DNA from: Ruegeria atlantica
Lineage (GTDB): Bacteria > Pseudomonadota > Alphaproteobacteria > Rhodobacterales > Rhodobacteraceae
Assembly: GCF_013032005.1 (NCBI RefSeq)
Contig: NZ_WQBE01000001.1
Coordinates: forward strand, 310,001-374,000
DNA length: 64,000 bases
Direction: 5' to 3'
The translations under genes and the position numbers were made by a program. How positions within the stretch are numbered: the first letter of the stretch is position 1; each line of letters starts with the position of its first letter. The notes beneath the pieces were generated by a model. That model was not told where the DNA came from. It did not search any database and worked only from the letters and a program-made list of their open reading frames with translations. This document shows, one piece after another, positions 20,692-39,133 of this stretch.

Positions 20692-21252
20692 TCAAAGTGC
20701 CGAGCGCATCGCCGTCAAAAGGGCATGATGCAGTGAACCGGCCGAGGATCGTGGACCGTAGAAACTGAAGCTCTCGGGTGTTCGGCACAGAACAAAACAA
20801 CCGATATGATGGATCGAACAGCGCGCCGCGCTGCCTGGGTCAAGCTTGCGCAGATCAAGCTGGCACAGGAGTTCCAGAACCGCAGGAATATGATCTCCGT
20901 TCAGGTCGAACCGCGTCCAACCGTCCGTTTGCTCGGTGACCGAGGCGGCATCTCCCATGGCGGTTTTGACCTGTTCGGCAAGCGCTTCGTGGGTGTCAAA
21001 GGGGGCCTCAATCATCCATTGATCGGGGCCGGCCCAGAACGCGCTGATCGTTGTACCGGCCCAGCGACCAATATCGGGGGTGGGGGCATCGATCAACTTG
21101 GCCAGAGAAGTGGCAGTATTGTCTTCCTGCCCCATCCGGGCCGCGACCGAGGCTAGCGCCACGCCGGGCACTTCGGTACATGTGACACCTCCGACGGTGT
21201 CCACGTGCGGGTCAGTCCCGCCCAGGGCGGTTATAGCAACAAGATCATGCAC
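20692..21252 (-). CDS. soxG: Sarcosine oxidase gamma subunit
   Basis: The start is placed at GTG 21252, which overlaps the end of soxA by eight bases and has AAGGAG nine bases upstream. A TTG at 21294 would add 14 residues. The 186-residue product has the gamma-subunit pattern: ALASVAARMG near the N-terminus, ISAFWAGPDQWMIEAP, and a GCVT-like C-terminus with RCSIHHIGCFVLCRTPESF. SoxG completes the alpha-beta-gamma-delta heterotetramer that oxidatively demethylates sarcosine to glycine, with transfer of the methyl group to tetrahydrofolate. It is the last gene of the soxBDAG operon and converges on the GlxA regulator gene. Confidence 0.88.
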   Translation of the reverse strand: MHDLVAITALGGTDPHVDTVGGVTCTEVPGVALASVAARMGQEDNTATSLAKLIDAPTPDIGRWAGTTISAFWAGPDQWMIEAPFDTHEALAEQVKTAMGDAASVTEQTDGWTRFDLNGDHIPAVLELLCQLDLRKLDPGSAARCSIHHIGCFVLCRTPESFSFYGPRSSAGSLHHALLTAMRSAL

Positions 21253-24190
21253 GTAGACGCTCTCCTTCAGGGTCGACGAAATGGGCGGAGACAAGTTCCA
21301 CCTCGACGGTCAGGTCAGTCAGGGGTGAGACCAGACGCATAGTCTCGCCCAGCCGCTCAGCCCCGTTTTTCACAAGGCCTAGGCCGATATTGCTGTTGAG
21401 GATCGGCGAGTAGACAGCCGAAGTGACATACCCCTGATCATGCGCCGCATCGACCGGGCCTTCGCTGTTCATCAGATGTCCGCCTGCTGTGACCTTATCT
21501 TCGGGTTGCAGAGGTTTGATCCCGACAAGTCGCAGGACATCCGGCTCGACCAGAGCCTTGCGTTCGGACAGGACCGAGCCGATACTGTCTTTCTTCTTTG
21601 ACACCATCTTGCCCAAGCCAAGGTTCAGTGCCGTGGTGGTGCCGTTCAGTTCACTCCCTGCGGCATGGCCTTTTTCAACCCGCATCACGCCCAACGCTTC
21701 GGTGCCATAGGGGGTTACGTCGAATTCTTCACCCTCGGCCATCAGCCGCCGCATCAGCGCGTCGCCATAACGTGAGGGCACCGCGATTTCGTAGGCCAGC
21801 TCGCCTGAGAACGAGATTCGGAACAACCGCGCCCGTAGCCCACCGCAGACGGTGACGTTGCCACAGGCCATGAACGGGAAGGCGTCGTTTGAAAGATCGA
21901 ACTCTGGGTCCAAGATCTTTTGCAGCAGTTTGCGCGAATTGGGGCCGGCCACGGCGTACTGTGCCCAGGCTTCGGTGGTTGAAATCAACTGGACATCCAT
22001 GTCCGGATACAGGCACTGGCGCGCAAATTCCATGTGGCGGTAGACACTTACAGCGTTCGCCGTGGTTGTGGTGACGACGAAGTGATCCTCGGCCATCCGC
22101 GCGGCGGTGCCGTCATCCATGACCATTCCGTCTTCGCGCAGCATCAGTCCGTACCGGGTTTTTCCTACGGCCAGCTTTGCGAAGCCATTGGCGTAGATGC
22201 GGTTCAGAAACTCGGCCGCATCGGTGCCCTGAACGTCGATCTTGCCCAGTGTCGTACAATCGCACACCCCGACCGAGGCGCGGGTTTGGCGTACCTCACG
22301 ATCCACGGACTGCCGCCAATGGGTTTCACCGGGCAGGGGGAACCACTGCGCACGCAGCCAGTTGCCAACCTCGACAAACACGGCGCCGCGTTCCTTGGCC
22401 CAATAGTGCGAGGGCGTCAGGCGGGTCGGGTGAAATTCCTGCCCCTTCATCCGGCCCGCGAAAGTGCCAATCGGCACGGGCGTGTAAGGCGGGCGGAAGA
22501 TGGTGGTTCCGACCTCGGGGATCGACTTGCCGGCCACCTCGGCCATGATCGCAAGGCCGGTGATGTTCGAGGTCTTGCCCTGATCCGTTGCCATGCCCAG
22601 CGTGGTATAGCGTTTCAGGTGCTCGACTGATCGGAACCCTTCCTGATAGCTGAGCTTGACGTCCTTAACGGTTACGTCGTTCTGCTGATCCACCCAGGCG
22701 CGCTTGCATCCTTGCACATACCAGAATGGCGTTTGCGAGACAGGAGCATCCTCAGCTTCGGGCAAGTCGGGCAGGACACCTGTCAGTTCCAGCGCGTTGG
22801 CCGCGCCTTCCGCACCGGATTGCAGGGCGCCATGTGTCGACATCACCCCGTTTGCAGCACCAGCAACCGACAGGCCGACGGGCAGGTTTTCTCCGGGCAC
22901 AAAGGCGGCCAAAGCGTCATCCCAGACCGGACGTCCGCGTTGATGGCATGTCATATGCACGTTCGGGTTCCAGCCGCCGGACACGCCCAGCGCCCCGCTT
23001 TCCAGAGTGCGGGTTGAGCCGTCAGCCAAGGCGACCTCGACAAAGGTCAGCCCGTGGCGGCCTTTGGTATCAATGACTTGTGCGCCTTTCAGGACCTCAT
23101 AGTCATAGCAGGTAGGTGCGTCCTCGCGCACATCTACGACGGCAGTGATTGTGACGCCCTTGGCATGCAGATCGGCCGCGGTGCGATGGCCGTCATCATT
23201 GTTGGTAAAGATCGCCACACGTTGCGACGCGGTGGCAGCGAACCGGTTGGCATAGGTTCGCAATGCGCTGGCCATCATGATGCCGGGCCGGTCGTTGTTT
23301 TCGAACGCGATGGGGCGCTCCGTGGCTCCGGCACAAAGCAGTGCTTTTTGAGTGTAAATACGCCATAGAATCTGACGGGGTTTGCCTGCGGGAACGGAAG
23401 CCAGGTGATCCCCGGTCCGTTCCACAGCGCCATAAATTCCGTGATCAAAGGCGCCGATCACGGTGGTGCGCGGCATCAGCCGGACGTTGGGCAATGACGA
23501 TAGTTCTGCCACGGCTTGTGCGGCCCAGTCCGAGGCGCTGTGATCACCCAGCGCAAAAGTTTCGCTGTTCAGACGGCCACCTAGCGTGAAATCCTCATCC
23601 GCCAGAATGACGTCTACCCCGGCACGTCCTGCGGTCAACGCCGCCATCAAACCGGCAGGCCCGGCACCGATTATCAGCAGATCGCAGTGACGGAACCCTT
23701 TGTCGTATTCATCCGGGTCAGCCTCTTGCGACAACGCTCCCAGACCGGCGGCGCGGCGGATCATCGGTTCGTAGAGCTTTTCCCAGAACGCGGCAGGCCA
23801 CATGAAGGTCTTGTAGTAAAACCCTGCCGACAGGAAGTTCGAGAACATATCGTTCACGGCCAGCGCGTCGAATTTCAAGCTCGGCCAGCGGTTCTGTGAC
23901 TTCGCCTCAAGCCCGTCGAACATCTCGATCGTTGTGGCGCGGGTGTTGGGTTCCTTAAGGGCACCGGTGCGCAGTTCGACCATGCCGTTGGGTTCTTCGG
24001 ACCCGGCGGTCAGCAGCCCGCGAGGGCGGTGGTATTTGAACGACCGCCCGATCAGCCGCACGTCATTGGCCAGCAAGGCCGAGGCCAGAGTATCGCCGGG
24101 ATGCGCCGTATAGCTGCGCCCGTCAAATTTGAAGGATAAAGAGGTGTTGCGGTCGATCTGGCCGCCATTCAGCCGGTTTGTCTGCGTCAT
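21245..24190 (-). CDS. soxA: Sarcosine oxidase alpha subunit
   Basis: The 981-residue protein has the expected domains. A 2Fe-2S_4-type N-terminal domain (about 1-95) includes YTAHPGDTLASALLANDVRL. A Rossmann NAD-binding domain follows, with DLLIIGAGPAGLMAALTAGR near 168-187 and ATERPIAFENNDRPGIMM further on. The C-terminal third is a folate-binding aminomethyltransferase domain with GVCDCTTLGKIDVQGTDAAE and RISFSGELAYEIAVP. In the heterotetramer this subunit binds NAD and passes the methyl group to tetrahydrofolate. It overlaps soxD by four bases upstream and soxG downstream. The length is normal for the family, about 970-1000 residues. Confidence 0.96.
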   Translation of the reverse strand: MTQTNRLNGGQIDRNTSLSFKFDGRSYTAHPGDTLASALLANDVRLIGRSFKYHRPRGLLTAGSEEPNGMVELRTGALKEPNTRATTIEMFDGLEAKSQNRWPSLKFDALAVNDMFSNFLSAGFYYKTFMWPAAFWEKLYEPMIRRAAGLGALSQEADPDEYDKGFRHCDLLIIGAGPAGLMAALTAGRAGVDVILADEDFTLGGRLNSETFALGDHSASDWAAQAVAELSSLPNVRLMPRTTVIGAFDHGIYGAVERTGDHLASVPAGKPRQILWRIYTQKALLCAGATERPIAFENNDRPGIMMASALRTYANRFAATASQRVAIFTNNDDGHRTAADLHAKGVTITAVVDVREDAPTCYDYEVLKGAQVIDTKGRHGLTFVEVALADGSTRTLESGALGVSGGWNPNVHMTCHQRGRPVWDDALAAFVPGENLPVGLSVAGAANGVMSTHGALQSGAEGAANALELTGVLPDLPEAEDAPVSQTPFWYVQGCKRAWVDQQNDVTVKDVKLSYQEGFRSVEHLKRYTTLGMATDQGKTSNITGLAIMAEVAGKSIPEVGTTIFRPPYTPVPIGTFAGRMKGQEFHPTRLTPSHYWAKERGAVFVEVGNWLRAQWFPLPGETHWRQSVDREVRQTRASVGVCDCTTLGKIDVQGTDAAEFLNRIYANGFAKLAVGKTRYGLMLREDGMVMDDGTAARMAEDHFVVTTTTANAVSVYRHMEFARQCLYPDMDVQLISTTEAWAQYAVAGPNSRKLLQKILDPEFDLSNDAFPFMACGNVTVCGGLRARLFRISFSGELAYEIAVPSRYGDALMRRLMAEGEEFDVTPYGTEALGVMRVEKGHAAGSELNGTTTALNLGLGKMVSKKKDSIGSVLSERKALVEPDVLRLVGIKPLQPEDKVTAGGHLMNSEGPVDAAHDQGYVTSAVYSPILNSNIGLGLVKNGAERLGETMRLVSPLTDLTVEVELVSAHFVDPEGERLRA

Positions 24191-24474
24191 TTGGATCGCC
24201 CCCGTGCGCGGGCCACGTCACGGGCCAGTTCCACCTTTGAAATCTCATGCGTCAGCGTGTTTCGCGTGACGACCAACCAGGATCGGTCTCCGGCCTCGTG
24301 ATACCATAGCTCTTGATGCTCGCCGGCGGGGTTGTCTCGCAGGTAGCCGTATTCATAGAAGGCCTCGGATACGTTCTCGGCCTGCCAGTCCGGGCGATCG
24401 ATCAGTGAGGCATCACCCAGATATGTGAACTCCGAGGCATCGCGCGGACCCAAAAGGGGATGGTTGATAATCAT
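24187..24474 (-). CDS. soxD: Sarcosine oxidase delta subunit, zinc-ligand-free variant
   Basis: The 95-residue protein aligns end to end with SoxD: the start MIINHPLLGPRDASEFTYLG, then YLRDNPAG, then LWYHEAGDRSWLVVTR. In characterised SoxD proteins a zinc ion is bound by two N-terminal cysteines in a CPxCG motif plus a histidine and a cysteine in an HxxGC motif. Here the N-terminal pair is His5 and Leu8. The later pair is His59 and Asp63, so only one of the four usual ligands is kept. The fold probably remains, but the metal site looks lost. The gene sits between soxB and soxA, 12 bases after soxB. Confidence 0.9.
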   Translation of the reverse strand: MIINHPLLGPRDASEFTYLGDASLIDRPDWQAENVSEAFYEYGYLRDNPAGEHQELWYHEAGDRSWLVVTRNTLTHEISKVELARDVARARGRSK

Positions 24475-24486: not shown

Positions 24487-25737
24487 TCAGTGCAGATTGG
24501 GCTGGTTGCCCACGCCTTTTTCGTCGATCATCCGGCCCGTCCGGAACCGGTCGAGGCGGTAGGCGGTGGCGACCGGGTGCGGCTCGTCCTTCGCCAACAG
24601 ATGCGCAAAGCAATGGCCCGAGGCCGGGGTTGCCTTGAACCCGCCGTAACACCAACCGCCGTTGAAATAGAGCCCCTCGACCGGCGTACGGTCGATGATG
24701 GGCGAGCCATCCATCGACATGTCCATCACACCGCCCCACATTCGCAAAAGGCGAGCGCGGCCGATCATGGGCATCAGGGCCACGCCGCCTTCACAAACAT
24801 CCTCGACCACGGGCAAGTTGCCGCGTTGGGCATAGGTGTTATAGCCGTCGATATCACCGCCAAAGACAAGCCCTCCCTTATCGGATTGGCTGACATAGAA
24901 ATGGCCCGCGCCGAAGGTGATGACACTGGGCAGAACTGGTTTCAGACCCTCGGAAACAAACGCCTGCAAAACGTGGCTCTCGATGGGCAATCGCATTCCG
25001 GCCATTCCCATCACGCGGCCGGAACTGCCCGCAACCGCGCAGCCTACTTTGTTCGCGCCGATGAAGCCCTTAGTCGTTTCAACGCCCAGGCATTTGCCAT
25101 TCTCAATCCGCAGGCCTGTGACCTCGCAATTCTGGATGATGTCGACGCCGTGCAGGTCAGCCGATCGCGCAAACCCCCACGCCACCGCGTCATGACGGGC
25201 AGTACCCGCGCGGCGCTGAACTAAGCCGCCCTTGATCGGAAAGCGGGCATCGTCAAAATTTAAATAGGGATGCTCTTTGCGGACCTGATCCGCATCTAGC
25301 AACTCGGCATCCGCGCCATTTAGGATCATCGCGTTGCCGCGCCTTGTATAGGCGTCTCGCTGACCGTCGGTGTGGAACAGATTGATGATCCCGCGCTGGC
25401 TCATCATGGCGTTGTAGTTCAAGTCCTGTTCAAGCCCTTCCCACAGCTTCATTGAGAACTCGTAGAACGGTTCATTCCCGTCCAGCATATAGTTCGAGCG
25501 CACAATCGTCGTGTTCCGTCCCACATTGCCGCCGCCGATCCAACCTTTTTCGACCACCGCCACATTGCGCTGACCATAGACCTTGGACAGGTAGTGCGCT
25601 GTTGCCAGCCCATGACCACCACCGCCGATGACGATGATGTCGTAATGCGCTTTGGGTTCGGGCTCACGCCAGACCGGTTTCCACCCTTTGTGGCCGGTGA
25701 GCGCCTCTTTGATGACTCGGAAGCCGGAATATCGCAT
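24487..25737 (-). CDS. soxB: Sarcosine oxidase beta subunit
   Basis: This 416-residue DAO-family flavoprotein is the catalytic subunit. The FAD-binding strand and loop YDIIVIGGGGHGLATAHYL lies at residues 32-50, with the acidic end VVEKGWIGGGNVGRN. His182 in TARHDAVAWG is at the position where heterotetrameric sarcosine oxidases attach FMN covalently. The C-terminal part has NGGWCYGGFKATPASG, the DAO-type substrate region. It is the first gene of the (-) operon soxB-soxD-soxA-soxG. The promoter must lie in the 84 bases between it and the LysR gene at 25822. Confidence 0.96.
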   Translation of the reverse strand: MRYSGFRVIKEALTGHKGWKPVWREPEPKAHYDIIVIGGGGHGLATAHYLSKVYGQRNVAVVEKGWIGGGNVGRNTTIVRSNYMLDGNEPFYEFSMKLWEGLEQDLNYNAMMSQRGIINLFHTDGQRDAYTRRGNAMILNGADAELLDADQVRKEHPYLNFDDARFPIKGGLVQRRAGTARHDAVAWGFARSADLHGVDIIQNCEVTGLRIENGKCLGVETTKGFIGANKVGCAVAGSSGRVMGMAGMRLPIESHVLQAFVSEGLKPVLPSVITFGAGHFYVSQSDKGGLVFGGDIDGYNTYAQRGNLPVVEDVCEGGVALMPMIGRARLLRMWGGVMDMSMDGSPIIDRTPVEGLYFNGGWCYGGFKATPASGHCFAHLLAKDEPHPVATAYRLDRFRTGRMIDEKGVGNQPNLH

Positions 25738-25821: not shown

Positions 25822-26679
25822 TTAAATGCGACTTACCTCAGGCAGTGCGCCGGAAAACCATTCCAGAAATGCGTCTACCTCGGGTGAGCGGCGTTGGACC
25901 GCCAGAAAATACCCTTCGGTTGCGGGGGCCGAGGCTTCGGTGGCACGTTTGACCCGACCGGTGCGCAATGCGTGTTCCGCGACCAAGGCGTTGACCAAAG
26001 CCACCCCGTTTCCGGTGGTGGCGAGTTGTAGAGCGAGACCGTAAGAATCCACGTAGAAGGTGGGGATTGGGATTGTGTACCCAGTTGCCTCGGACCAAGA
26101 CGACCAATTGCCGGATGTGCCGACCGCCTCGATCAACGGCAGGTCCGGCAAGTCGCCGTCCAACTGGGGAGATTTCACCGCGATCAGGTCATTGGGCAAC
26201 AGTTCGGTTGCGTCCCGACCCACCTGTTTTGCAGATCCGAACCGTATTTCGATGTCCGCGCGAGAGGCCGAGTATTCATCCGGCCAGATCGTGCTGACAA
26301 AACGCACGGATGTGTCCGGGTTTCGCGACCGGAATTGCGGCAACGCAGGGGATATCACCCATTCCAGCACGCTGACCGACGCCGCAACGGTAAGGTGACG
26401 CGCGCGTTCCTCGGCCAGATACGGTGACGCCGCCGAGTGCAGCATCTCCAGCGCGGCTTCGACCTTCGGCAGCAGCTTTCGGCCCTCGTCGGTCAACGAC
26501 AGGCCGCGCGCGTGGCGGTGAAACAACACCACACCCAACCGCGTTTCCAGCGATCTGATCTGTTGGCTGACGGCGGATTGCGTCAGGCCGATCTCGTCAG
26601 CGGCGGCGGTGGAACTGAGCCGTCGTGCGGCGGCTTCGAACGATCTGAACCACGTGAGCGGGGGCAGGGTTTTGGGCAT
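25822..26679 (-). CDS. LysR-family regulator, probable controller of the pyridinium-type operon
   Basis: The start is placed at ATG 26679, preceded by AGG; a GTG at 26703 would fall inside the palindrome. The 285-residue GcvA-like protein has PPLTWFRSFEAAARRLS, then the HTH AADEIGLTQSAVSQQIRSLE. It is divergent from the operon starting at 26787, and the shared 107-base region carries a clear T-N11-A dyad (26692-26708). A LysR regulator divergent from this exact set of catabolic genes matches tgnR/homR of the trigonelline and homarine clusters. Control of soxB, which lies downstream on the same strand, is less likely. Confidence 0.88.
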   Translation of the reverse strand: MPKTLPPLTWFRSFEAAARRLSSTAAADEIGLTQSAVSQQIRSLETRLGVVLFHRHARGLSLTDEGRKLLPKVEAALEMLHSAASPYLAEERARHLTVAASVSVLEWVISPALPQFRSRNPDTSVRFVSTIWPDEYSASRADIEIRFGSAKQVGRDATELLPNDLIAVKSPQLDGDLPDLPLIEAVGTSGNWSSWSEATGYTIPIPTFYVDSYGLALQLATTGNGVALVNALVAEHALRTGRVKRATEASAPATEGYFLAVQRRSPEVDAFLEWFSGALPEVSRI

Positions 26680-26691
26680 TTGTAACCTACA

Positions 26692-26708
26692 TATTAGAGT
26701 CACTAATA
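26692..26708. promoter_or_regulatory. LysR-type operator (T-N11-A palindrome)
   Basis: TATTAG (26692-26697) and CTAATA (26703-26708) are perfect inverted repeats around a five-base centre, containing the T-N11-A core typical of LysR binding sites. It lies between the divergent LysR gene and the catabolic operon, 12 bases upstream of the LysR ATG, where it could mediate autorepression and operon activation. Confidence 0.65.
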
Positions 26709-26786
26709 CCTAAGACCAAAGTTCTTTCGTTTGTCAAAGCAGCCCCTGGCCGAGGATAGTTTGCCAATCAATCAAAGGGGGCGTTT

Positions 26787-27386
26787 GTGCAGCCAAATAT
26801 TCGAAAAATCGTGACCTACGACGAAGAGGTTCTGGTTGAAGGGTTTCGCGAGGCAGACCGACCATGGCGGATGTTCGCGGTGGCGGCTGTGATCACCAAC
26901 CCGTGGGCCGGACGTTATGTCGAGGACCTGAGGCCTGAGATTCTGAGCTTTGCCCCTGTTTTAGGTGAGGAACTGACCGGACGAATGATTGCGTTGGCTG
27001 GCAGCGGCGATGCAATCGAAGCCTATGGTAAGGCCGCTGTTGTCGGGCTGGACGGAGAGGTCGAGCATGCCTCGGGCCTGATCCACACGCTGCATTTCGG
27101 TAATCATTTCCGGCAGGCGGTTGGGGCGAAATCCTACCTGTCTTTCACCAATACCCGAGGGCCAGCCAACGCACCGATCATGGTGCCGCTGATGGACAAG
27201 AACGATGCCGGTCGCCGGTCGCATTATCTGACGCTGCAATTCGCCATTCCCGACGCACCGCGCGCTGATGAGGTTGTGATTGTGCTGGGCGGCGCGACGA
27301 CGGGGCGTCCGCACCATCGGATTGGGGATCGTTATCAGGACTTGAAGGATTTGGGTCATGACGTGGACAACCCGGCCTCGGTCTAA
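26787..27386 (+). CDS. DUF1185 (amino acid synthesis family) protein
   Basis: The 199-residue protein starts at a GTG after an AAAGGGGG stretch. It matches DUF1185, with ITNPWAGRYVEDLRP, HASGLIHTLHFGNHFRQAVG and SYLSFTNTRGPANAP. The catalytic role of the family is not established; its members are found in operons with flavin-dependent ring-opening enzymes. It is the first gene of the six-gene operon and overlaps the hydrolase gene by 29 bases. In the homarine cluster of roseobacters I recall five structural genes plus a regulator, and this would be one of them. Confidence 0.82.
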   Translation: MQPNIRKIVTYDEEVLVEGFREADRPWRMFAVAAVITNPWAGRYVEDLRPEILSFAPVLGEELTGRMIALAGSGDAIEAYGKAAVVGLDGEVEHASGLIHTLHFGNHFRQAVGAKSYLSFTNTRGPANAPIMVPLMDKNDAGRRSHYLTLQFAIPDAPRADEVVIVLGGATTGRPHHRIGDRYQDLKDLGHDVDNPASV

Positions 27387-28137
27387 GTTCGATGATCTGG
27401 CCGCGATTGACGTGGGCGAGGGGCCTCTGGTCGTGCTGTTGCACGGTGTCGGTCTGAGGGCCGAAGCGTGGGGCGGGCAGATCGAGCCTTTGGTTTCTGC
27501 TGGGTATCGCGTGGTTTGCCCGGACATGCTGGGTCACGGGGAAACGGCATTTACCGCGCCAAGTGGAATGAATAGCTACGCCGCGCCGATTGCCGCGTTG
27601 TTCAACGAGCCTGCGGTGCTGATCGGGCATTCGATGGGTGCGCTGATTGCCACGCAAATAGCGGCCTCGGACAATCGAAATATCAAAGGGGTTGCGGCCC
27701 TGAACGCCATTTACAAAAGGTCAGACGCGGCTCGACAAGCGGTCTTGTCGCGGGCTCATGCGCTTGATGCGCAGCAGCCGAACGACGCCTCGGTCACTCT
27801 GCGCCGGTGGTTTGCAGAGAGTGCATCAGCGGAACGCGATGCCTGCGCGCGATGGCTGCAAGAGGTCGATCCACGCGCCTATAAGGCGGCCTATACGGTC
27901 TTTGCCGAAAGCGACGGCCCGACCGAAGCGCAGTTGGCTGCGGTTACATGTCCGGCCATATTTGTGACCGGCGCGGATGAGCCGAACTCGACCCCCGTTA
28001 TGTCGCTAAAGATGGCCAGCCTTGCACCAAAGGGGCGGGCAGAGATCATCCCCGGTGCAGCACACATGATGCCGATGACCCATGCGGCGCAGGTCAACGC
28101 CACGCTGTTGCCCTTTGTTCAGGAGTGCCTGACATGA
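27358..28137 (+). CDS. Alpha/beta hydrolase of the ring-cleavage operon
   Basis: The 259-residue protein has the alpha/beta-hydrolase fold: oxyanion strand VVLLHGVGLRAEAW, nucleophile elbow GHSMG, acid region TGADEPNSTP and histidine region GAAHMMPMT. In the trigonelline pathway of Acinetobacter, TgnD is an alpha/beta hydrolase that cleaves the N-methylformamido-methylene-succinate intermediate to methylamine, formate, CO2 and succinate semialdehyde. The gene order here supports an equivalent role. It overlaps DUF1185 upstream by 29 bases and the flavin reductase gene by four bases (ATGA at 28134-28137). Confidence 0.85.
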   Translation: MTWTTRPRSKFDDLAAIDVGEGPLVVLLHGVGLRAEAWGGQIEPLVSAGYRVVCPDMLGHGETAFTAPSGMNSYAAPIAALFNEPAVLIGHSMGALIATQIAASDNRNIKGVAALNAIYKRSDAARQAVLSRAHALDAQQPNDASVTLRRWFAESASAERDACARWLQEVDPRAYKAAYTVFAESDGPTEAQLAAVTCPAIFVTGADEPNSTPVMSLKMASLAPKGRAEIIPGAAHMMPMTHAAQVNATLLPFVQECLT

Positions 28138-29042
28138 CCACGTTGGACCCACGCGCCCTGCGCGATGCCTTTGGCAGCTTCATGACCGGTGTGACAGTGG
28201 TGACCACCCGCGATGAAAATGGCGTGCCGGTTGGATTCACGGCAAACTCGTTTTCCTCGGTGTCTCTAGACCCGCCGCTGCTGCTGGTGTGCCCAGGCAA
28301 GTTCCTGTCCAGCTATGAAGTGTTCACCGATTGCCGTCATTTCGCCGTCAACATTCTGGCTGAAGGTCAGCAAGAGGTTTCGAACACTTTTGCAGGGCAT
28401 AAAGGCGACCGGTTCGCGAAAGTTCCCCATCATAACGGCGAGCATGACTTGCCGCTGATCGACGGAGCGGTGGCGCAATTCTGTTGCGAAACCCATCAGG
28501 CCATTCCGGCAGGCGATCATACCATCCTGATGGGCCGTGTGCTTGAATTCTCACACGTTGCAGGCGACGGATTAGGCTATGTGGGCGGATCGTATTTCAG
28601 CCTGGGTCTTGAGGCCGAAATGGACGCCAAAGTCCCAACGGTTTGCGGTGCGATTATTACTGCTGGCGACCAAGTGCTTTTGGAACGCCATGGCGCTGCG
28701 TTTCGCCCGGTTCAAGTCTCGGGTGCTGAGACTGGTGGTCAACGGAACAGGCTGGCGCAGGGGTTGTCGGAACGCGGTATCCATGCGCGGATCGAACAGG
28801 TCTATTCGTCGTTCAATGACGCCGAGACCAAGCTGCAATATACGTTTTTCCTGGCGTCAGCAGATCAGCCCTGCGCATCTACGAATGCCCAGTGGGTACC
28901 GGTTGCGAACCTGCCCAACCTGACCTTCGCCACTCAAGGCATTCACCACATGATGACCCGCTTTGCACGCGAGGTTCAGACCGGGGATTTCGCCTTGTAT
29001 CTGGGCGACGCCGAACGCGGCGACATTCACAGTTTTCGCTAA
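28134..29042 (+). CDS. Flavin reductase with a C-terminal Nudix-like domain
   Basis: The start is placed at ATG 28134 in the ATGA overlap with the hydrolase gene. Residues 1-165 form a flavin-reductase-like FMN-binding domain (ALRDAFGSFMTGVTVVTTRD and GFTANSFSSVSLDPPLLLVC). It would supply reduced FMN to the neighbouring luciferase-like monooxygenase, as TgnB does for TgnA. The remaining 135 residues look like a Nudix fold (VCGAIITAGDQVLLERHG and a later FLASADQPC strand) but without the GX5EX7REUXEEXGU catalytic box. The extra domain may be regulatory or may bind the partner. Confidence 0.85.
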   Translation: MTTLDPRALRDAFGSFMTGVTVVTTRDENGVPVGFTANSFSSVSLDPPLLLVCPGKFLSSYEVFTDCRHFAVNILAEGQQEVSNTFAGHKGDRFAKVPHHNGEHDLPLIDGAVAQFCCETHQAIPAGDHTILMGRVLEFSHVAGDGLGYVGGSYFSLGLEAEMDAKVPTVCGAIITAGDQVLLERHGAAFRPVQVSGAETGGQRNRLAQGLSERGIHARIEQVYSSFNDAETKLQYTFFLASADQPCASTNAQWVPVANLPNLTFATQGIHHMMTRFAREVQTGDFALYLGDAERGDIHSFR

Positions 29043-29054
29043 AGGAGCCGATTG

Positions 29055-30089
29055 ATGGAGTTTTCGCTGTTTGCCCATATGGAACGCCAGACGCCGGATC
29101 AGCCGCATGACGTTCTGTATGACGAGTTCGTTAGTCTGGTGAAAATGGCCGATGAGGGCGGGATGCGTGCGGTTTGGACGGGCGAGCATCATGGCATGGA
29201 ATTCACCATTGCGCCGAATCCGTTCCTGTCTCTGGTCGATCTGGCGCATCATACGAAGAATGTGCGCCTTGGCACGGGTACGGTGGTCGCGCCATTTTGG
29301 CATCCGATCAAGCTGGCCGGTGAGGCCGCAGCGGCAGATCAGATCACCAAGGGTCGGATCGAATTGGGAATTGCACGCGGAGCCTATTCCTTTGAATACG
29401 AACGTCTGATGCCCGGGATGGACGCATGGGAGGCCGGTCAGAGGATGCGGGAAACCACGCCACTACTGCCACAAATTTGGCAGGGGGACTGCGCGCATGA
29501 GGGTGAGTTCTACTCGTTCCCGGCCACGACCTCGGCCCCGAAGCCTCTGCAGAAAGGTGGCCCGCCGATTTGGATCGCGGCGCGTGATCCAAACAGCCAC
29601 GAGTTCGGCGTCCATAACGGGTTCAACATTCAGGTTACACCGCTGTGGCAGGGGATGGAGGAAATTGAAACGCTGATGGGCCGGTTCAACGGTGCTTGCG
29701 ATAGCTATGCCGGGCCGCGGCCCAAGATTATGTTGCTGCATCACACCTATGTCGGCAAGGATGACGAAGATGTGGCACAGGGTGTTCAGGATTTGCGGCG
29801 GTACTACAACTATTTCGGTGCCTGGTTCCTGAATAAACGCCCGGTCCAGCAGGGTTTGATCGAGCCGATCACACAGGCAGAAATGGACGCCAATCCGATG
29901 TATACCACCGAAAAGCTGGGCCGCGATCTGACCGTTGGAACCACGCAGCAGGTGATTGACCGGATCAAACGGTACGAGGATCTGGGATATGATGAGTTTT
30001 CGTTCTGGGTCGACAGCGGCATGACTAACGAACGTAAACGCGCCTCTCTGGCGCGGTTCATCGACGACGTTATGCCAGCTTTTCAGTGA
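29055..30089 (+). CDS. Luciferase-like (LLM class) FMN-dependent monooxygenase
   Basis: The start is ATG 29055, after AAAGGAG. The 344-residue TIM-barrel protein has the bacterial-luciferase pattern: a short N-terminal strand EFSLFAHMERQT, WTGEHHGMEF in the active-site region, VRLGTGTVVAPFWHPIKLAGE and GRIELGIARG. Enzymes of this class use reduced FMN from a separate reductase, encoded directly upstream here. In trigonelline degradation the homologous TgnA opens the N-methylpyridinium ring between C2 and C3. Homarine (N-methylpicolinate) would be the marine counterpart. Other heterocycles cannot be excluded from sequence. Confidence 0.9.
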   Translation: MEFSLFAHMERQTPDQPHDVLYDEFVSLVKMADEGGMRAVWTGEHHGMEFTIAPNPFLSLVDLAHHTKNVRLGTGTVVAPFWHPIKLAGEAAAADQITKGRIELGIARGAYSFEYERLMPGMDAWEAGQRMRETTPLLPQIWQGDCAHEGEFYSFPATTSAPKPLQKGGPPIWIAARDPNSHEFGVHNGFNIQVTPLWQGMEEIETLMGRFNGACDSYAGPRPKIMLLHHTYVGKDDEDVAQGVQDLRRYYNYFGAWFLNKRPVQQGLIEPITQAEMDANPMYTTEKLGRDLTVGTTQQVIDRIKRYEDLGYDEFSFWVDSGMTNERKRASLARFIDDVMPAFQ

Positions 30090-30097
30090 GGATCACC

Positions 30098-31576
30098 ATG
30101 GGAAATCTTCCGCATTTTCAACTGTTCATTGATGGCAAATGGTCCGAAGGGTCAAACGCACAGGTCATGACATCAGAAAACCCAGCGACGGGGCAGGGAT
30201 GGGCCACGTTCGCTTGTGCCTCGGCCGCGGATGTCGGTCGCGCAGTTGCGGCTGCCAAACGCGTTCTGGACGATCCGGCGTGGCGGGATATGACGCAGAC
30301 CGCACGAGGCAAGCTGTTGTACCGACTGGCCGATCTGGTGGCCGAACATGCGACTAAGTTGGGTGAACTGGAGACGACCGATAGCGGCAAGCTGCTGGCG
30401 GAAACTTCAGCACAAACGGGTTATGTAGCGGACTACTACCGCTATTTCGCGGGTCTGGCGGATAAGGTCGAAGGAACGGTTCTGCCTATTGACAAGCCCG
30501 ACATGCACGTCTTTACGACCCGCGAACCTATCGGAGTTGTTGCTGCCATCGTGCCATGGAACGCGCAGATGTTCCTGACGGCGACCAAATTGGGTCCGGC
30601 ACTGGCGGCGGGGTGCTCGGTCGTTTTGAAAGCTTCAGAAATTGCGCCTGCGCCGATGCTGGAGTTTGCGCGGTTGATTGAACAGGCCGGGTTTCCACCC
30701 GGTGTCGTCTCGGTCATCACGGGTGACGCTGAAAACTGCGCCATTCCGCTGACCCGCCACCCGGATATTGACCGTATTGCCTTTACGGGTGGGCCAGAGA
30801 CTGCGCGGCATGTGGTGCGCAACTCGGCCGAGAACTTTGCTGTCACCTCGTTGGAACTGGGGGGCAAATCCCCGATTCTGGTGTTTGAAGATGCCGATCT
30901 GGATGGCGCGGCCAATGGTCTGATCGCCGGGAACTTTGGCGCCTCGGGGCAGAGTTGCGTAGCAGGAACACGAGGTTTGGTGCATCGATCCATTCTGGAA
31001 CCGCTGATCGAACGGATTGAGCAAAAGGCCAGCGGCATCCGGCTGGGCGACCCACTGCAGGCGGAAACGCATGTGGGGCCGCTCTGCACTGCAACACAGG
31101 TGCGACGGATCGAGGAAACGCTGGCCAAAGCGCGCGGGCAGGGCGCGACGGTCCGCTTTGGGGGCGAGATCGCGGATCGACCGGGGAATTACATGAAGCC
31201 AACACTGGTTCAGTGCGCCTCGGCTGATACAGAAACGCTAAAGGTCGAAATGTTCGGGCCAGTGATGTCTCTGTTGCCGTTTGATACCGAGGATGAAGCG
31301 ATCGCGCTGGCGAACAGCACACCTTATGGGCTGGGGTCAGGCGTGTTCACGCAGAATCTCGCGCGGGCGCATCGGGTGTCGAAACGGATCAGAGCAGGGA
31401 TTTGCTGGGTGAATACGTATCGTGCGATCTCACCGATTGCGCCCTTTGGCGGGTTCAACCAATCGGGCTATGGGCGCGAGGCCGGGGTTGAGGCAATATT
31501 GGATTACACCAGAACCAAAACAACCTGGATCAACACCGCGCAAGAGCCGATGGCGAACCCGTTCATTATGCGCTAA
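30098..31576 (+). CDS. Aldehyde dehydrogenase of the ring-cleavage operon
   Basis: The start is ATG 30098, preceded by GAGG; an earlier GTG at 30086 overlaps the previous gene and has no ribosome site. The 492-residue NAD(P)-dependent aldehyde dehydrogenase has IVPWNAQMFLTATKLGPALA, the general-base motif LELGGKSP and the nucleophile region GASGQSCVAGTRG with the catalytic cysteine. TgnC in the trigonelline pathway oxidises the hydroxylactone/aldehyde ring-opening product, and this gene sits in the matching position. It lies nine bases after the monooxygenase gene. Confidence 0.92.
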   Translation: MGNLPHFQLFIDGKWSEGSNAQVMTSENPATGQGWATFACASAADVGRAVAAAKRVLDDPAWRDMTQTARGKLLYRLADLVAEHATKLGELETTDSGKLLAETSAQTGYVADYYRYFAGLADKVEGTVLPIDKPDMHVFTTREPIGVVAAIVPWNAQMFLTATKLGPALAAGCSVVLKASEIAPAPMLEFARLIEQAGFPPGVVSVITGDAENCAIPLTRHPDIDRIAFTGGPETARHVVRNSAENFAVTSLELGGKSPILVFEDADLDGAANGLIAGNFGASGQSCVAGTRGLVHRSILEPLIERIEQKASGIRLGDPLQAETHVGPLCTATQVRRIEETLAKARGQGATVRFGGEIADRPGNYMKPTLVQCASADTETLKVEMFGPVMSLLPFDTEDEAIALANSTPYGLGSGVFTQNLARAHRVSKRIRAGICWVNTYRAISPIAPFGGFNQSGYGREAGVEAILDYTRTKTTWINTAQEPMANPFIMR

Positions 31577-31605
31577 GCCTGTGCAAAAGCATGGGGAGAG
31601 CGTTG

Positions 31606-32472
31606 ATGAAACTGGTAAACCCGAACTTCGCGGCACCAACGGATGCAGATGACCGCAAGGCCATCCAACCGGTCATTTGCTACCCGCCCGAGACGTTGAC
31701 GCAACCGGACCTGACCGCGTTGGCCAAACTGCGGCAAGGGGCCAGCAAAACCGCCGAGGCCATCGCAGCGCCACGTGATGCGGCCTGTATCGACGTGCCC
31801 GCAGGCGCGTTTGTTCGGGTGTTGTCGGTCGATGGGCCGCAGGTCGGCGACCTGAACATGTGGAGCAAGCACGACCTGTCCGAGCGGTTCTATTCCGGCA
31901 AAACCCGCGCTTTGCACGGCACCCATCTGTCGACCGGGGATCGCATGTGGTCGAGCTTTCCCAACATGCGCCCTATGGCGACTGTCGTAGATGATACGCT
32001 GGATTGGTACGGGTTCGACGCGTTCGGCGGTTCGGTCCATGACGTAATCGGCACGCGCTGCGATCCCTATACGGGGCGGTTGTTGTCCGGCGACGATTAC
32101 CATTATTGCTGCCATTCCAACCTGACCCGTGCGCTGGCCAGCCATTGCAACCTGCCGCTGCACGAGGCCGAGATGCTGGTGCATGACGTCCTGAACGTGT
32201 TCATGTGTACCGGGTTCACGCGCGACACCGGGCAGTATTTCATGAAGGCCAGCCCGGTGCGCCCCGGTGACTATCTTGAGTTCTACGCCGAGATCGATTT
32301 GATCGTCGGTCTTTCGGCCTGTCCCGGAGGGGATTGTTCGTCAGAGCATTCCTCGGACGCTGCCGCCTGCTATCCGCTGGTGATGGAGGTCTATGATCCC
32401 GGTGAAGATGCGCGCGCCGCGCATGTGCAACCCGCGCGCTCAGCCTATGACCGCACGCACGGAGCCAGTTAA
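31606..32472 (+). CDS. Urea carboxylase-associated family protein (DUF1989)
   Basis: The start is ATG 31606, after GGGGAGAG; an ATG at 31591 lies upstream of that site. The 288-residue protein matches DUF1989: ACIDVPAGAFVRVLSVDGPQ, GDLNMWSKHD, GTRCDPYTGRLLSGDDYHYC and the cysteine-rich SACPGGDCSSEHS. Members accompany urea or guanidine degradation genes, and some are carboxyguanidine deiminase subunits, but the activity of this one is unknown. It ends the operon and overlaps the convergent M20 gene by four bases. It is not a component I recall from tgn clusters, so it may be an add-on for nitrogen release. Confidence 0.82.
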   Translation: MKLVNPNFAAPTDADDRKAIQPVICYPPETLTQPDLTALAKLRQGASKTAEAIAAPRDAACIDVPAGAFVRVLSVDGPQVGDLNMWSKHDLSERFYSGKTRALHGTHLSTGDRMWSSFPNMRPMATVVDDTLDWYGFDAFGGSVHDVIGTRCDPYTGRLLSGDDYHYCCHSNLTRALASHCNLPLHEAEMLVHDVLNVFMCTGFTRDTGQYFMKASPVRPGDYLEFYAEIDLIVGLSACPGGDCSSEHSSDAAACYPLVMEVYDPGEDARAAHVQPARSAYDRTHGAS

Positions 32473-33626: not shown

Positions 33627-34807
33627 GGCTTAACGAACAGTTTTCGCGGCCGGTTGCAAAAGCACTCCGCGGCTCCGGTTTTGGTGATCAGGATCGACTC
33701 GGTGATCTCAAGCCCCCAGTCGTCCATCCAGAGGCCCGGCATGAAATGAAAGGTCATGCCGGGTTCCAGAAAAGTCTCATCCTCGGGGCGCAATGAGATG
33801 GTGCGCTCGCCCCAATCCGGCGGATAGCTGAGGCCAATCGGATAGCCACACCGCGCACCGCGTTCGATTCCGGCGCGTTCCAAAGGGGCAGCCAGAGCCA
33901 ACGCAATATCCCGCGCCTGATTGCCCGCGCGGGCAGCGTCCAGCCCGGCCTCTAGCCCTTCGACCAACGCCGCTTCGGCTCGCAGCAGATAATCGGGTGG
34001 TTGACCCAGAAAAACTGAGCGGCAGAAAGGCGCGTGGTAGCGGCGGTAACAGCCAGAGAGTTCAAAGAATGTGCATTCTCCGGATTTGAACGGCGCACCA
34101 TCCCATGTCAGATGCGGGGCCGCAGCATCCGAGCCCGAAGGCAGCAGCGGCACGATGGCGGCATAGTCCCCCCAATCCTCGCCCACACCCAGGATCGCAT
34201 CGTGGTAAATCTGCGCGACCAGTTCGTTCTTATGTAGGCCGGGTTCGATCCGGTCAAGCACACCGTCGATAACATGTTCCGAGATCCGCGCGGCCTTGCG
34301 CATCAGGGCAATTTCTTCATCCGATTTCACCGCACGTTGCCAATTCACCAGCCCATTCGCATCGGCCAGTTCGGCCTGCGGCAGTTCGGCCATCAAGGTC
34401 AGATGCGCCTTGGCCGAGTAATAGTAGTTGTCCAATTCGACACCGATCCGACCCGCTGCCAGTCCACAGTCCCGGATCACAGCCGCAAAGTCCTGCATCG
34501 GGTGGCGGACGGTCGATTGCACATAGTGATCCGCGTATCCGCGAATCCGATCGTCTTTCATCCAGACCGTGCGCCGCGCGCCGTTGGCGTCCTGATTGCG
34601 GCCCCACCAAATCGGGTCACGGTCATGCAGAACCAATACGCCCTGATGCACGTAGAATGACCAACCCTCATATCCCGTCAGCCATGTCATATTAGACGGG
34701 TCTTCAATGAACAGCGCATCCAGACCAGCTGCTGCCATGGCAGCACGCGTCTTTGCCAGCCGACGATCATACTCAGATGGGCTGAATGCCGGATTGGCAT
34801 GGGCCAT
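33623..34807 (-). CDS. doeA: Ectoine hydrolase-like M24 protein (DoeA/EutD type)
   Basis: The 394-residue protein starts at ATG 34807 after AGGAG. It shows the DoeA pattern: SNMTWLTGYEGWSFYVHQ, GRNQDANGARRTVWM, YADHYVQSTVRHP, IVPLLPSGSDAAAPHLTWDG and YPIGLSYPPDWGERTISLRP. DoeA/EutD opens the ectoine ring to N-acetyl-diaminobutyrates. The pita-bread (M24) fold is clear, but the Asp-Asp metal ligands of true aminopeptidases are not conserved: the segment reads FFELSGCYRRYHAPF. That is expected for this subgroup. It is divergent from the PLP lyase gene with about 85 bases between. The exact substrate could be ectoine or a related cyclic amidine. Confidence 0.82.
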   Translation of the reverse strand: MAHANPAFSPSEYDRRLAKTRAAMAAAGLDALFIEDPSNMTWLTGYEGWSFYVHQGVLVLHDRDPIWWGRNQDANGARRTVWMKDDRIRGYADHYVQSTVRHPMQDFAAVIRDCGLAAGRIGVELDNYYYSAKAHLTLMAELPQAELADANGLVNWQRAVKSDEEIALMRKAARISEHVIDGVLDRIEPGLHKNELVAQIYHDAILGVGEDWGDYAAIVPLLPSGSDAAAPHLTWDGAPFKSGECTFFELSGCYRRYHAPFCRSVFLGQPPDYLLRAEAALVEGLEAGLDAARAGNQARDIALALAAPLERAGIERGARCGYPIGLSYPPDWGERTISLRPEDETFLEPGMTFHFMPGLWMDDWGLEITESILITKTGAAECFCNRPRKLFVKP

Positions 34808-34892
34808 GGGACGCTCCTGTGGTGACCGAGTTTTGTTGACAGAACTTGACGAATCCGATCACGTCAATGGGCAACTCAGGAAAGACGCTCAA

Positions 34893-35936
34893 TTGAAAAT
34901 CACATCCAACCCTCATCGCGGCGGCCAGAAACTGATCGAGGCCGCACCGTACCCTTCGACCAATGTCGCGCGCGCGTCAGAATTGATCGCACGCTGCCTG
35001 TCGGACAAAGAAACGCCTCTGACCGAAGTGAAGGGGTTGGCCGATGTCGCACACCTGTGGGCAAAGGATGAACGTGGTCGGATGGATCTGGGGTCGTTCA
35101 AAGCCTTGGGTGCGGCCTATGTCATCGCGCGCCATGCGGCGGTTATCGCGGAAAACCCGGACGCCTCGACACTGGCGGGTCGGACCTATGTCACCGCCAG
35201 TGCAGGCAATCACGGCCTAAGCGTCGCGTCCGGTGCGAGCCGTTTCGGGGCCAATTCTGTCGTTTATATCGCAGACACCGTACCCGAAAGTTTTGCCGAA
35301 CGCCTGCGCGCTCAGGGTGCTGATGTTGTGCGCGAGGGCGTGGACTATGCCGCCAGCATGGAGGCCGCAAGTAAAGCAGCGCAGGATAACGGATGGATAT
35401 TGCTGTCGGACAGTTCGTGGGAGGGGTATTACGAACTGCCGCATACTCTGATGGAGGGGTACCTGCAGATGGCCGCCGAAGCTGTGCGCCAATGCCCGCA
35501 AGTGCCGACCCATATCATGTTGCAGGCCGGTGTTGGTGGTTTGGCCGGAGCGGCCGCAGCCTATATGAGGACGGCTTGGGGGCAAGAACCTCAGATCATC
35601 GTTGTCGAACCTGATGCAGCTCCGGCCTTGCAGGCCAGTATCGAGGCTGGCGCCTGCGTGTTCGCCGATGGCCCTGACAGCGTCATGGGGCGTCTCGATT
35701 GCAAGGAACCGTCTCTGATTGCCTTGAACGGATTGGCCAGAGATGCCGACAGTTTCCTGACCCTGACCGATGAGCAGGTGACTGAACATCTTCCCGCAAT
35801 GGCCGATGCTGGCATCGCTACAACGGCTTCGGGCGGGGCGGGGGTTGCCGCCGTGATGAATGCCGATGCGCGGGCGGGTCTGGGCATCGAGCCAAATGCT
35901 CGTGTTCTGTGCATTATCTCAGAGATTGCCGAATGA
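34893..35936 (+). CDS. Diaminopropionate ammonia-lyase-like PLP enzyme
   Basis: A fold-type II PLP enzyme with the lysine in DLGSFKALGAAYVIAR (Lys70), TASAGNHGLSVASGA as the substrate loop and LQAGVGGLAGAAAAYM as the phosphate loop. Overall it resembles DpaL, which deaminates 2,3-diaminopropionate. No ATG suits the N-terminus. TTG 34893 is chosen because AGGAAAG lies eight bases upstream and it gives 347 residues starting just before YPSTN; the frame stays open upstream into the doeA region. EutB in ectoine clusters is a related PLP protein, so a role in hydroxyectoine or diamino-acid catabolism is possible. Its stop overlaps the next start (ATGA at 35933). Confidence 0.75.
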   Translation: MKITSNPHRGGQKLIEAAPYPSTNVARASELIARCLSDKETPLTEVKGLADVAHLWAKDERGRMDLGSFKALGAAYVIARHAAVIAENPDASTLAGRTYVTASAGNHGLSVASGASRFGANSVVYIADTVPESFAERLRAQGADVVREGVDYAASMEAASKAAQDNGWILLSDSSWEGYYELPHTLMEGYLQMAAEAVRQCPQVPTHIMLQAGVGGLAGAAAAYMRTAWGQEPQIIVVEPDAAPALQASIEAGACVFADGPDSVMGRLDCKEPSLIALNGLARDADSFLTLTDEQVTEHLPAMADAGIATTASGGAGVAAVMNADARAGLGIEPNARVLCIISEIAE

Positions 35937-37078
35937 GGGGCTTTGAAGCGTCCGAATTCCAGTCGCGGACCGAGCGTGCGCAACATCGGATGGCGCAAGA
36001 GGGGCTGTCGGCGCTGTTGCTGACCACAGAACCCGAGGTTCGCTATTTTACAGGGTATCTGACCCGGTTTTGGGAAAGCCCGACGCGCCCGTGGTACCTG
36101 ATCGTGCCTGCAACTGGCAAACCGATCGCCGTCATCCCATCGATCGGGGCGGCATTGATGGCGACAACCTGGATCGAAGACATTCGCACCTGGAGCGCGC
36201 CGGACTTGACCGACGATGGTGTTAGCCTGCTGGCCGACGCTTTGTTCGAAATCTGCCCTGCAGATGCGGTAATCGGTCTGCCGGATGGTCACGAAACCCA
36301 TGTTCGCATGCCTTTGGCCGATCTTAACAGGTTGCAGGAAAGGTTGGGTTCCCGTCGTCTGGGCAGTGACGAAGGTATTCTCCGTGCGCTGCGGATGGTG
36401 AAATCCGAGGCAGAGATTGCCAAGATCGAAACCGCCTGCGCAATCGGGGGCAGGGCCTTTCAACGCGTGCCCGAGATCGCCGCTGAAGATGTTGCTTTGG
36501 ACGAGGTGTTCCGCCGTTTTCAGATGCTGTGCCTTGAGGAAGGCGCGGATTGGGTGCCGTATCTGGCTGGCGGGGCCGAGCAGGGCGGGTATGCCGATGT
36601 GATTTCTCCAGCCCGTCCAACCGCATTGGTGCCGGGGGATGTTTTAATGCTGGACACGGGCTTGGTGTGGGACGGGTATTTTTGCGATTACGACCGCAAT
36701 TGGTCGGTCGGGCAGGCGTCGGCGCAGGTGCGCGACGCTTATGCCACGTTGATCGAAGCATCAGATGCGGGGTTTGAAGCGGCACGCCCAGGCGCAACTG
36801 CAGCTGATCTGTTCCACGCAATGAACGCGATCTTGTCCCGAAACAGCGAAGACACCGGTGCAGGGAGGTTGGGACATGGCCTTGGCATGTCGTTGACGGA
36901 ATGGCCTTCTCTGATCCCATCGGATCACACGGTATTGGAACCCGGGATGGTCCTGACATTAGAGCCAGGCATCGCCGTGGGCGATAAAATACTGGTCCAC
37001 GAAGAAAATATCGTCATCACGCAAGGCGCACCGCGCTTTATCAGCCCAAGAGTCGGCGCGGAGTTGCCCCAGATATGA
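35933..37078 (+). CDS. M24 family metallopeptidase (Xaa-Pro dipeptidase-like)
   Basis: The start is ATG 35933, overlapping the previous stop. The 381-residue protein has the N-terminal creatinase-like domain (LLLTTEPEVRYFTGYLTRFW) and a complete metal-binding M24 domain. The Asp pair is in LMLDTGLVWDGYFCDYDRNW, the histidine in GHGLGMSLTEWP, and the glutamates in LTLEPGIAV and VHEENIV. Unlike the DoeA-type and creatinase proteins of this region, it retains all five dimetal ligands, so it is a true metal-dependent peptidase or amidohydrolase. The substrate is unknown. It overlaps the Asp/Glu racemase-like gene by four bases (37075-37078). Confidence 0.85.
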   Translation: MRGFEASEFQSRTERAQHRMAQEGLSALLLTTEPEVRYFTGYLTRFWESPTRPWYLIVPATGKPIAVIPSIGAALMATTWIEDIRTWSAPDLTDDGVSLLADALFEICPADAVIGLPDGHETHVRMPLADLNRLQERLGSRRLGSDEGILRALRMVKSEAEIAKIETACAIGGRAFQRVPEIAAEDVALDEVFRRFQMLCLEEGADWVPYLAGGAEQGGYADVISPARPTALVPGDVLMLDTGLVWDGYFCDYDRNWSVGQASAQVRDAYATLIEASDAGFEAARPGATAADLFHAMNAILSRNSEDTGAGRLGHGLGMSLTEWPSLIPSDHTVLEPGMVLTLEPGIAVGDKILVHEENIVITQGAPRFISPRVGAELPQI

Positions 37079-37785: not shown

Positions 37786-37931
37786 AGGGGTGACCGTATC
37801 CAAAATTGTAGTGCTTCAAATATATTTTTGGTTGCACGGCGCGCCCTGCATGTCCTTAAATGTCCCCAATGGTCTTTGAGATCCGGATAAACCGGGCAAC
37901 CAACAGACCGCACAGGGAGCCAAGTCGGTAT

Positions 37932-39023: not shown

Positions 39024-39034
39024 GCAAGGAAATA

Positions 39035-39061
39035 CCCGCGCGCTCTGCCCGGACGCGCGGG
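39035..39061 (+). terminator. Intercistronic hairpin between ATPase and binding-protein genes
   Basis: CCCGCGCG (39035-39042) pairs perfectly with CGCGCGGG (39054-39061) across an 11-base loop. No T-run follows directly. It may stop decay or attenuate transcription, helping to set binding-protein mRNA apart from that of the ATPase. Confidence 0.45.
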
Positions 39062-39070
39062 ATATCAGAT

Positions 39071-39094
39071 GATCAGGCACCCCGTGACCTGATC
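39071..39094 (+). other. Second hairpin upstream of the binding-protein gene
   Basis: GATCAGG (39071-39077) pairs perfectly with CCTGATC (39088-39094), loop ten bases. It lies 39 bases before the ATG at 39134 and is followed by an A-rich stretch, so it is a probable 5'-stabilising or promoter-proximal element for the binding-protein mRNA. Confidence 0.4.
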
Positions 39095-39133
39095 TGAAAA
39101 GCTAAAATTAACGGGAATAACAGGGAGTTAACA

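Follow-up and report, generated by a model that had tools for sequence, protein, structure and literature searches.

A predicted N-methylpyridinium carboxylate ring-opening operon beside putative methylamine genes in Ruegeria atlantica

The closest described relatives of the operon studied here are the trigonelline genes, tgn in Acinetobacter baylyi and trc on pSym in Sinorhizobium. For homarine, Ferrer-Gonzalez et al. reportedly described in 2026 an operon that is said to be named homABCDER. Our operon lies in a 64,000-nucleotide stretch of Ruegeria atlantica DNA (contig NZ_WQBE01000001.1, positions 310,001 to 374,000), called the window below. Trigonelline and homarine are plankton metabolites according to excerpts of PMC8269262 and its correction PMC10134881, and the excerpted PMC12817926 reports that Ruegeria pomeroyi draws down homarine within hours. 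A part in the breakdown of homarine has been reported for N-methylglutamate dehydrogenase, Mgd (cited in excerpts of PMC13390433), and the same excerpts place R. pomeroyi tmaR (SPO1584, AraC type) upstream of mgdABCD (SPO1585-1588) and downstream of dmmDABC. Excerpts of PMC7913881 give TgnF as a homologue of the DUF1185-family protein HcdD; TgnF stimulates TgnE-dependent oxidation of succinate semialdehyde in A. baylyi, a like action was proposed for HcdD, and the authors' own attempts to detect a TgnF-like effect of their DUF1185 protein failed. Our literature search returned no description of the window operon; its coverage excluded the 2026 homarine and 2018 trigonelline papers, and an earlier description of the lineage called type A below is possible.

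Five tightly packed genes encode a DUF1185 protein, an alpha/beta hydrolase, a flavin reductase, a luciferase-like flavin monooxygenase (LLM) and an aldehyde dehydrogenase (ALDH); they run divergently from a LysR gene, with a DUF1989 gene sixth in line. An earlier note on this DNA had described this layout, and open reading frame (ORF) coordinates and strong Pfam matches bore it out, all seven genes being located where the note had placed them (Table 1). Neighbouring forward genes overlap by 29, 13 and 4 nt at three junctions and stand 9 and 14 nt apart at the other two. Among the NCBIfam families shown for the seven proteins there was no trigonelline enzyme. The closest LLM among named genomes came from R. 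halocynthiae and R. meonggei (94% identity).

We consider it likely that this operon serves to open an N-methylpyridinium carboxylate ring and that methylamine is released. As to the substrate, evidence lies on both sides, and we lean, tentatively and at somewhat less than even confidence, to trigonelline over homarine. We infer the reactions, substrate and products alike, following the chemistry of the trigonelline pathway. The flavin reductase would supply reduced flavin, and the LLM oxygenase would break the ring between C5 and C6, yielding an N-formyl-N-methyl aldehyde. The ALDH would oxidise this ring-opened aldehyde, the alpha/beta hydrolase would take off the N-formyl group, and the N-methyl amine would leave as methylamine; the DUF1185 protein would act as an accessory. 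Methylamine, via N-methylglutamate, could then be used through the adjacent TmaR/MgdABCD-like genes, and regulation probably comes from the divergent LysR acting at a conserved putative operator.

Relatives were assigned to types by LLM identity to the window copy: type A at about 70% and above, type B at about 60-70% and type C at 34-42%. In a family sample of 295 genomes the LLM had a match at E<=1e-60 in 77, comprising 22 with type A, 27 with type B and the rest with type C only; tblastn against plasmids found it in 1034 records, 256 of these at 60-80% identity. A scan of named genomes yielded 590 relatives, the best 80 of which were kept as the 80 named type-A loci. A 96-locus type-A set includes unnamed copies of named genomes, and counts over the 80 loci were preferred. 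Gene counts near loci were made by tblastn. The 80 loci come mostly from roseobacters and Roseibium/Labrenzia, which are marine genera, and from a few other metagenome-assembled genomes (MAGs). Among the loci inspected, most of type A have LysR divergent from DUF1185-hydrolase-reductase-LLM-ALDH; in a Silicimonas/Boseongicola group an M24 gene takes that place or LysR is missing from it. Type C is arranged otherwise and comes with RidA, CaiB-reductase fusions, enoyl-CoA hydratase, 3-hydroxyacyl-CoA dehydrogenase and BKACE. In each of the quick trees of the LLM, ALDH, hydrolase and DUF1185 proteins, a single branch separated type A from the rest. The window operon looks like a member of a sister lineage to type B, the trigonelline-type set. 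Two arrangements were recorded apart from this: in the Mesorhizobium ciceri type-B operon (L016, 7205-9004) the hydrolase and flavin reductase are apparently fused in one coding sequence, and locus L220 (genome G296) combines a 52% identical LLM with GntR, reductase and ALDH and may branch basal to both A and B.

The type-B locus of S. medicae pSymA carries on one strand GntR, DUF1185, hydrolase, flavin reductase, LLM, ALDH, NIPSNAP, an ATP-binding cassette (ABC) transporter and a succinate-semialdehyde dehydrogenase (SSADH), and adjoins nodL and noeA; the S. meliloti 1021 locus is nearly the same. An Acinetobacter baumannii record has a divergent GntR, DUF1185, hydrolase, reductase, LLM, ALDH, an NCS1-type transporter and SSADH. 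One gene of the Acinetobacter locus had been labelled a porin; no family match backs this and the label was dropped. Both SSADH proteins score above the TIGR01780 cut-off. As a separate observation, a Yoonia MAG (L153, 6549-6755) holds a 69-residue C-terminal SSADH remnant, 85% identical to the Sinorhizobium copy, directly beside a type-A LysR. The window LLM is 66% identical to the S. meliloti and 63% to the Acinetobacter copies, and the window DUF1185 protein is 69% identical to the copies at both loci. The likeness to tgnR/D/B/A/C drawn in the earlier note held for the five core genes, which are syntenic with a set of tgnA-F content, and was not supported for the regulator, the type-B loci having a linked GntR homologue in 35 of 36 cases. 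An AlphaFold model of the window reductase (predicted local distance difference test 76, predicted template modelling score 0.57; second domain at about 172-286) had as its best fold match 3rh7, which is SMa0793 of S. meliloti (289 columns, 37%). The template modelling (TM) score of 0.45 and root-mean-square deviation of 13 mean that the model does not reproduce the domain arrangement. The S. medicae type-B reductase matched 3rh7 over its full length (677 bits).

On the other side of LysR lies an operon which the earlier note had called sarcosine oxidase, as NCBIfam and Protein Data Bank matches would also have it. Its SoxB- and SoxA-like subunits do score above sarcosine oxidase models (TIGR01373, 695.7 vs 529; TIGR01372, 1327.5 vs 1164); these subfamily models may be unable to separate sarcosine oxidase from Mgd. 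We set that identification aside on the 71-79% identity of the SoxB-, SoxD- and SoxA-like proteins to the mgd candidate of R. pomeroyi, and the neighbour is most likely, judged by such similarity, TmaR-MgdABCD. R. pomeroyi is here genome G449, so taken from a 100% match to SPO0826 over 182 residues; at 1.66-1.69 Mb it carries a type III glutamine synthetase (GmaS-like), a glutamine amidotransferase (MgsA-like), an AraC gene and four sarcosine-oxidase-type genes, to which the tags SPO1584-1588 were assigned by position and context. Mgd-like genes adjoin 11 of the 80 named type-A loci, all in the close Ruegeria group, and gmaS/mgs-like genes adjoin two more, in Yoonia sediminilitoris and a Sulfitobacter MAG, with both linked GmaS-like proteins above the TIGR03105 cut-off. 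Neither kind of neighbour was found at any of the 36 type-B loci. Because type A has joined methylamine genes three separate times, an N-methylated substrate with methylamine as product is the best reading; the release of methylamine proposed in the earlier note fits this linkage in three type-A lineages.

Several findings favour the substrate of type B: the residues of the LLM pocket, the small share of fixed LLM differences, the mutual exclusion of A and B, and neighbours that the two have in common. LLM pocket positions, chosen from luciferase contacts, were compared across 94 type-A, 35 type-B and 28 type-C sequences, with one type-B sequence (L040, 70% identity) counted as A by the identity cut. 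Types A and B held the same residue wherever both conserve one, and type C (37%) differed at many positions. Positions 191 and 193, next to the chosen set, differ between A and B. Among sites conserved in both types, fixed A/B differences made up 10/179 in the LLM, the lowest share of the five genes (DUF1185 15/124, reductase 11/83, hydrolase 11/70, ALDH 54/278).

Types A and B were not found together within the genus. Of 54 same-genus genomes, 26 carried type A, 15 type B, 13 neither and none both, where an overlap of 7.2 was expected (P = 4e-6 without a tree). When A and B were simulated as evolving independently on a guaA tree, zero overlap arose in 2 of 3000 runs (P = 0.0007); on this tree the two are interspersed and four sister pairs differ, A against B. 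In two same-genus genomes the type-B operon stands beside ArgE, EutA and an ABC transporter (in one of them DAPAL and M24b too), as type A does in the window. We give only a slight chance to the idea that A and B are mutually incompatible, interchangeable operons with one oxygenase specificity and different dehydrogenase/hydrolase halves, so that both together would misroute the ring-opened aldehyde, the type-A downstream half having been rebuilt to feed N-methylglutamate metabolism.

The strongest competitor to trigonelline is homarine, which we regard as a real possibility of lower probability. The same ring opening on N-methylpicolinate would give N-formyl-N-methyl-dehydroglutamate; hydrolysis would lead to N-methyliminoglutarate and then to 2-oxoglutarate plus methylamine, or to N-methylglutamate, feeding the adjacent Mgd. 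The operon would then be the one that the 2026 paper reportedly calls homABCDER, or a close relative. The mostly roseobacter, marine genera of the 80 named loci agree with this, as does the reported part of Mgd in homarine catabolism (PMC13390433, excerpts) taken with mgd-like genes as direct neighbours. Further observations weigh against trigonelline. A full-length SSADH (at least 55% identity) occurred at 0 of 80 named type-A loci vs 9 of 36 type-B loci, in a search confined to the loci. At LLM identities of 66-70%, the ALDH was 57.7% identical in A-B pairs vs 73.4% in B-B pairs, and the hydrolase 43.5% vs 55.6% (n = 216 vs 17); by these comparisons ALDH divergence is greater than the LLM predicts. 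For the hydrolase the excess is less clear, because B-B pairs with LLM identity of 55-66% have an equally low 42.5%. Of its 11 fixed differences, 5 cluster at the catalytic His; with the 54 fixed differences in ALDH, this suggests that the ring-opened intermediate may differ between A and B. Type B is itself presumed to be the trigonelline (tgn/trc) set by its gene content and by genetics. Proximity to gmaS/mgs-like genes, moreover, is shared by other types: 4 of 27 type-C loci have a GmaS- or MgsA-like gene nearby. The exclusivity of A and B also softens in an independent-pair sign test on the guaA tree (4-5 informative pairs, p 0.06-0.125) and in the family sample alone (P = 0.11). Several points nevertheless speak against homarine: the oxygenase pocket matches that of type B, the two types are mutually exclusive, the core operon holds no ketimine reductase, and the gmaS/mgs-like neighbours of two type-A loci point to free methylamine. 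R. pomeroyi, moreover, consumes homarine, and the one LLM it has at E<=1e-50 is a type-C protein of 37% identity, with neither type A nor type B present. That the operon handles another N-methylated ring compound, or accepts both isomers, seems unlikely to us. A conserved oxygenase with diverged downstream enzymes would suit it, and transporter and M24 module parts are joined by A, B and C operons alike; it brings no specific candidate compound, and the close synteny with the trigonelline-type set argues against it.

It is also improbable, in our estimate, that the LLM operon, the DUF1989 gene and the DAPAL/M24/EutA/ABC module to their right form one pathway. Beside type A, module genes do occur in more than one layout; they also stand next to type B in genomes G342 and G346 and next to type C in G045. 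Most module copies, however, occur without an LLM operon, and among 13 family genomes with an M24b at least 70% identical, an LLM gene lies within 20 kb in 4, a solute-binding protein within 5 kb in 11 and DUF1989 within 10 kb in 5 (neighbours read by eye, the window's own genome included in each count). The putative LysR operator, too, has no second exact copy in the genome, exact matches being what was searched. Relatives of the module's solute-binding protein occur in 248 of the 295 family genomes. DUF1989, which the earlier note had left as an unexplained sixth gene, is now explained in part: at 50% identity or more it follows ALDH in 11 of the 80 named type-A loci, all of them close Ruegeria, and in 0 of the 69 others, and elsewhere it lies near M24b and its module in genomes without an LLM operon there. 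A role for it as a step of ring opening was thought unlikely on these two grounds, and its neighbourhoods favour a place in the DAPAL-M24b-EutA-ABC module over one in the LLM operon. Next to the module, the DoeA-like ectoine hydrolase at 33623-34807 narrowly missed its NCBIfam cut-off (601.8 vs 613 bits) and adjoins an M20 deacetylase gene.

The type-C locus of R. pomeroyi (L221, a genome identity taken by inference; about 2.85-2.87 Mb) comprises LLM, alpha/beta hydrolase, a CaiB-flavin reductase fusion, ALDH, enoyl-CoA hydratase, BKACE, an ABC transporter and DUF1185. Its LLM is the only relative at E<=1e-50 in this known homarine consumer, which makes it a candidate homarine locus. It had been considered as the carnitine locus and was rejected as such: the verified carnitine transporter is SPO2995-2998 (PMC10130141, excerpts), and by position the type-C locus falls near SPO2706. 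A statement in PMC8269262 that R. pomeroyi grows better on trigonelline than on homarine was dropped, the authors having deleted it (PMC10134881, excerpts).

The divergent LysR-DUF1185 pair recurs in 68 of the 80 named type-A loci, several of the remaining 12 being cut by contig ends, and the pairing is beyond chance. The regulator scored 189 bits against NCBIfam GcvA, under the cut-off of 288. Between the two genes lies a putative operator, ATTAG-N5-CTAAT. The best site deviates from this pattern by no more than one letter in 56 of the 68 type-A regions between LysR and DUF1185, vs 0.4% of letter shuffles; the 68 loci are related, so that this measures conservation rather than 68 independent trials. 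Letter shuffles of the window gave 0.6 sites with up to one mismatch. In the 4.4 Mb genome, searched for exact matches, the operator occurred once, as did a reversed control pattern. The ATG at 26679 is the likely LysR start, since translation from the GTG at 26703 would make the gene run into the operator. A promoter-like sequence includes the TTTGTCAAA element, present within one mismatch in 53 of the 68 loci; such promoter-like sites numbered 6 in the region vs 3.5 expected. From this conservation, LysR most likely acts at the putative operator here.

Table 1. Features of the ring-opening operon and its surroundings, in window positions.
Feature	Position	Strand	Basis
AraC regulator, TmaR-like	19679..20683	+	56% to R. 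pomeroyi AraC beside mgd candidate; NCBIfam GbdR 202 bits, under cut-off
N-methylglutamate dehydrogenase-like subunit, SoxG-like	20692..21294	-	NCBIfam soxG 51 bits, under cut-off; position
N-methylglutamate dehydrogenase-like subunit, SoxA-like	21245..24190	-	71-79% to R. pomeroyi, two pieces
N-methylglutamate dehydrogenase-like subunit, SoxD-like	24187..24474	-	73% to R. pomeroyi
N-methylglutamate dehydrogenase-like subunit, SoxB-like	24487..25737	-	78% to R. pomeroyi operon beside TmaR candidate
LysR regulator, GcvA-like	25822..26679	-	Pfam HTH_1 5e-21, LysR_substrate 4e-18; GTG-start ORF 25822-26703
Putative LysR operator ATTAG-N5-CTAAT	26693..26707	no strand	Conserved LysR-DUF1185 intergenic site
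Promoter-like TTGTCA-N18-GATAGT	26731..26760	+	Motif search; conservation of TTTGTCAAA element
DUF1185 / AA_synth protein (TgnF type)	26787..27386	+	Pfam AA_synth 5e-72
Alpha/beta hydrolase (TgnD type)	27358..28137	+	Pfam Abhydrolase_6 6e-24; GHSMG nucleophile motif; presumed catalytic His 237
Flavin reductase (TgnA type), C-terminal domain ~172-286	28125..29042	+	Pfam Flavin_Reduct 2e-38
LLM flavin monooxygenase (TgnB type)	29052..30089	+	Pfam Bac_luciferase 8e-50
Aldehyde dehydrogenase (TgnC type)	30086..31576	+	Pfam Aldedh 1e-153; GQSC and ELGGK motifs
DUF1989 protein	31591..32472	+	Pfam DUF1989 7e-45
ArgE and DoeA-like genes	32469-34807	-	
Module: DAPAL-like lyase, M24 hydrolase, EutA-like, Pot-type ABC transporter, second M24 hydrolase	34707..44174	+	

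A genomic marker for trigonelline or homarine use needs lineages A, B and C to be told apart; ecological surveys would be misled if each LLM/ALDH/DUF1185 cluster were given the label 'homarine' or 'trigonelline'. Through its position next to TmaR/Mgd-like genes, the predicted ring degradation is tied to the recovery of methylamine nitrogen, and the swap of A and B among sister species of one genus provides a ready natural experiment.

Compared with tgn of A. baylyi and trc of Sinorhizobium pSym, the window operon has the five core genes in the same order: the pair of LLM and flavin reductase (TgnB/TgnA), the latter of two domains as in SMa0793 (3rh7); ALDH (TgnC) and alpha/beta hydrolase (TgnD), strongly diverged with their motifs kept; and the DUF1185 protein (TgnF). 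It differs in having LysR where the type-B loci have GntR, in the absence of an adjoining full-length SSADH (TgnE), which is linked there, in its position beside mgd-like genes (gmaS/mgs-like in other type-A loci) and in the DUF1989 gene added in the Ruegeria group. To homABCDER the likeness is one of five structural genes and a regulator, going by the operon name as it is reportedly given. The involvement of Mgd in homarine use (PMC13390433, excerpts) is a further likeness, mgd-like genes adjoining the window operon, and the difference is that the homarine user R. pomeroyi is without the type-A lineage. With TmaR-MgdABCD of R. pomeroyi the neighbouring genes share the divergent layout, 71-79% identity in the three of four subunits compared and 56% in the AraC regulator. 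There these genes lie near gmaS/mgs-like genes and, according to the excerpts of PMC13390433, dmm, whereas the window copy stands beside the putative ring-opening operon.

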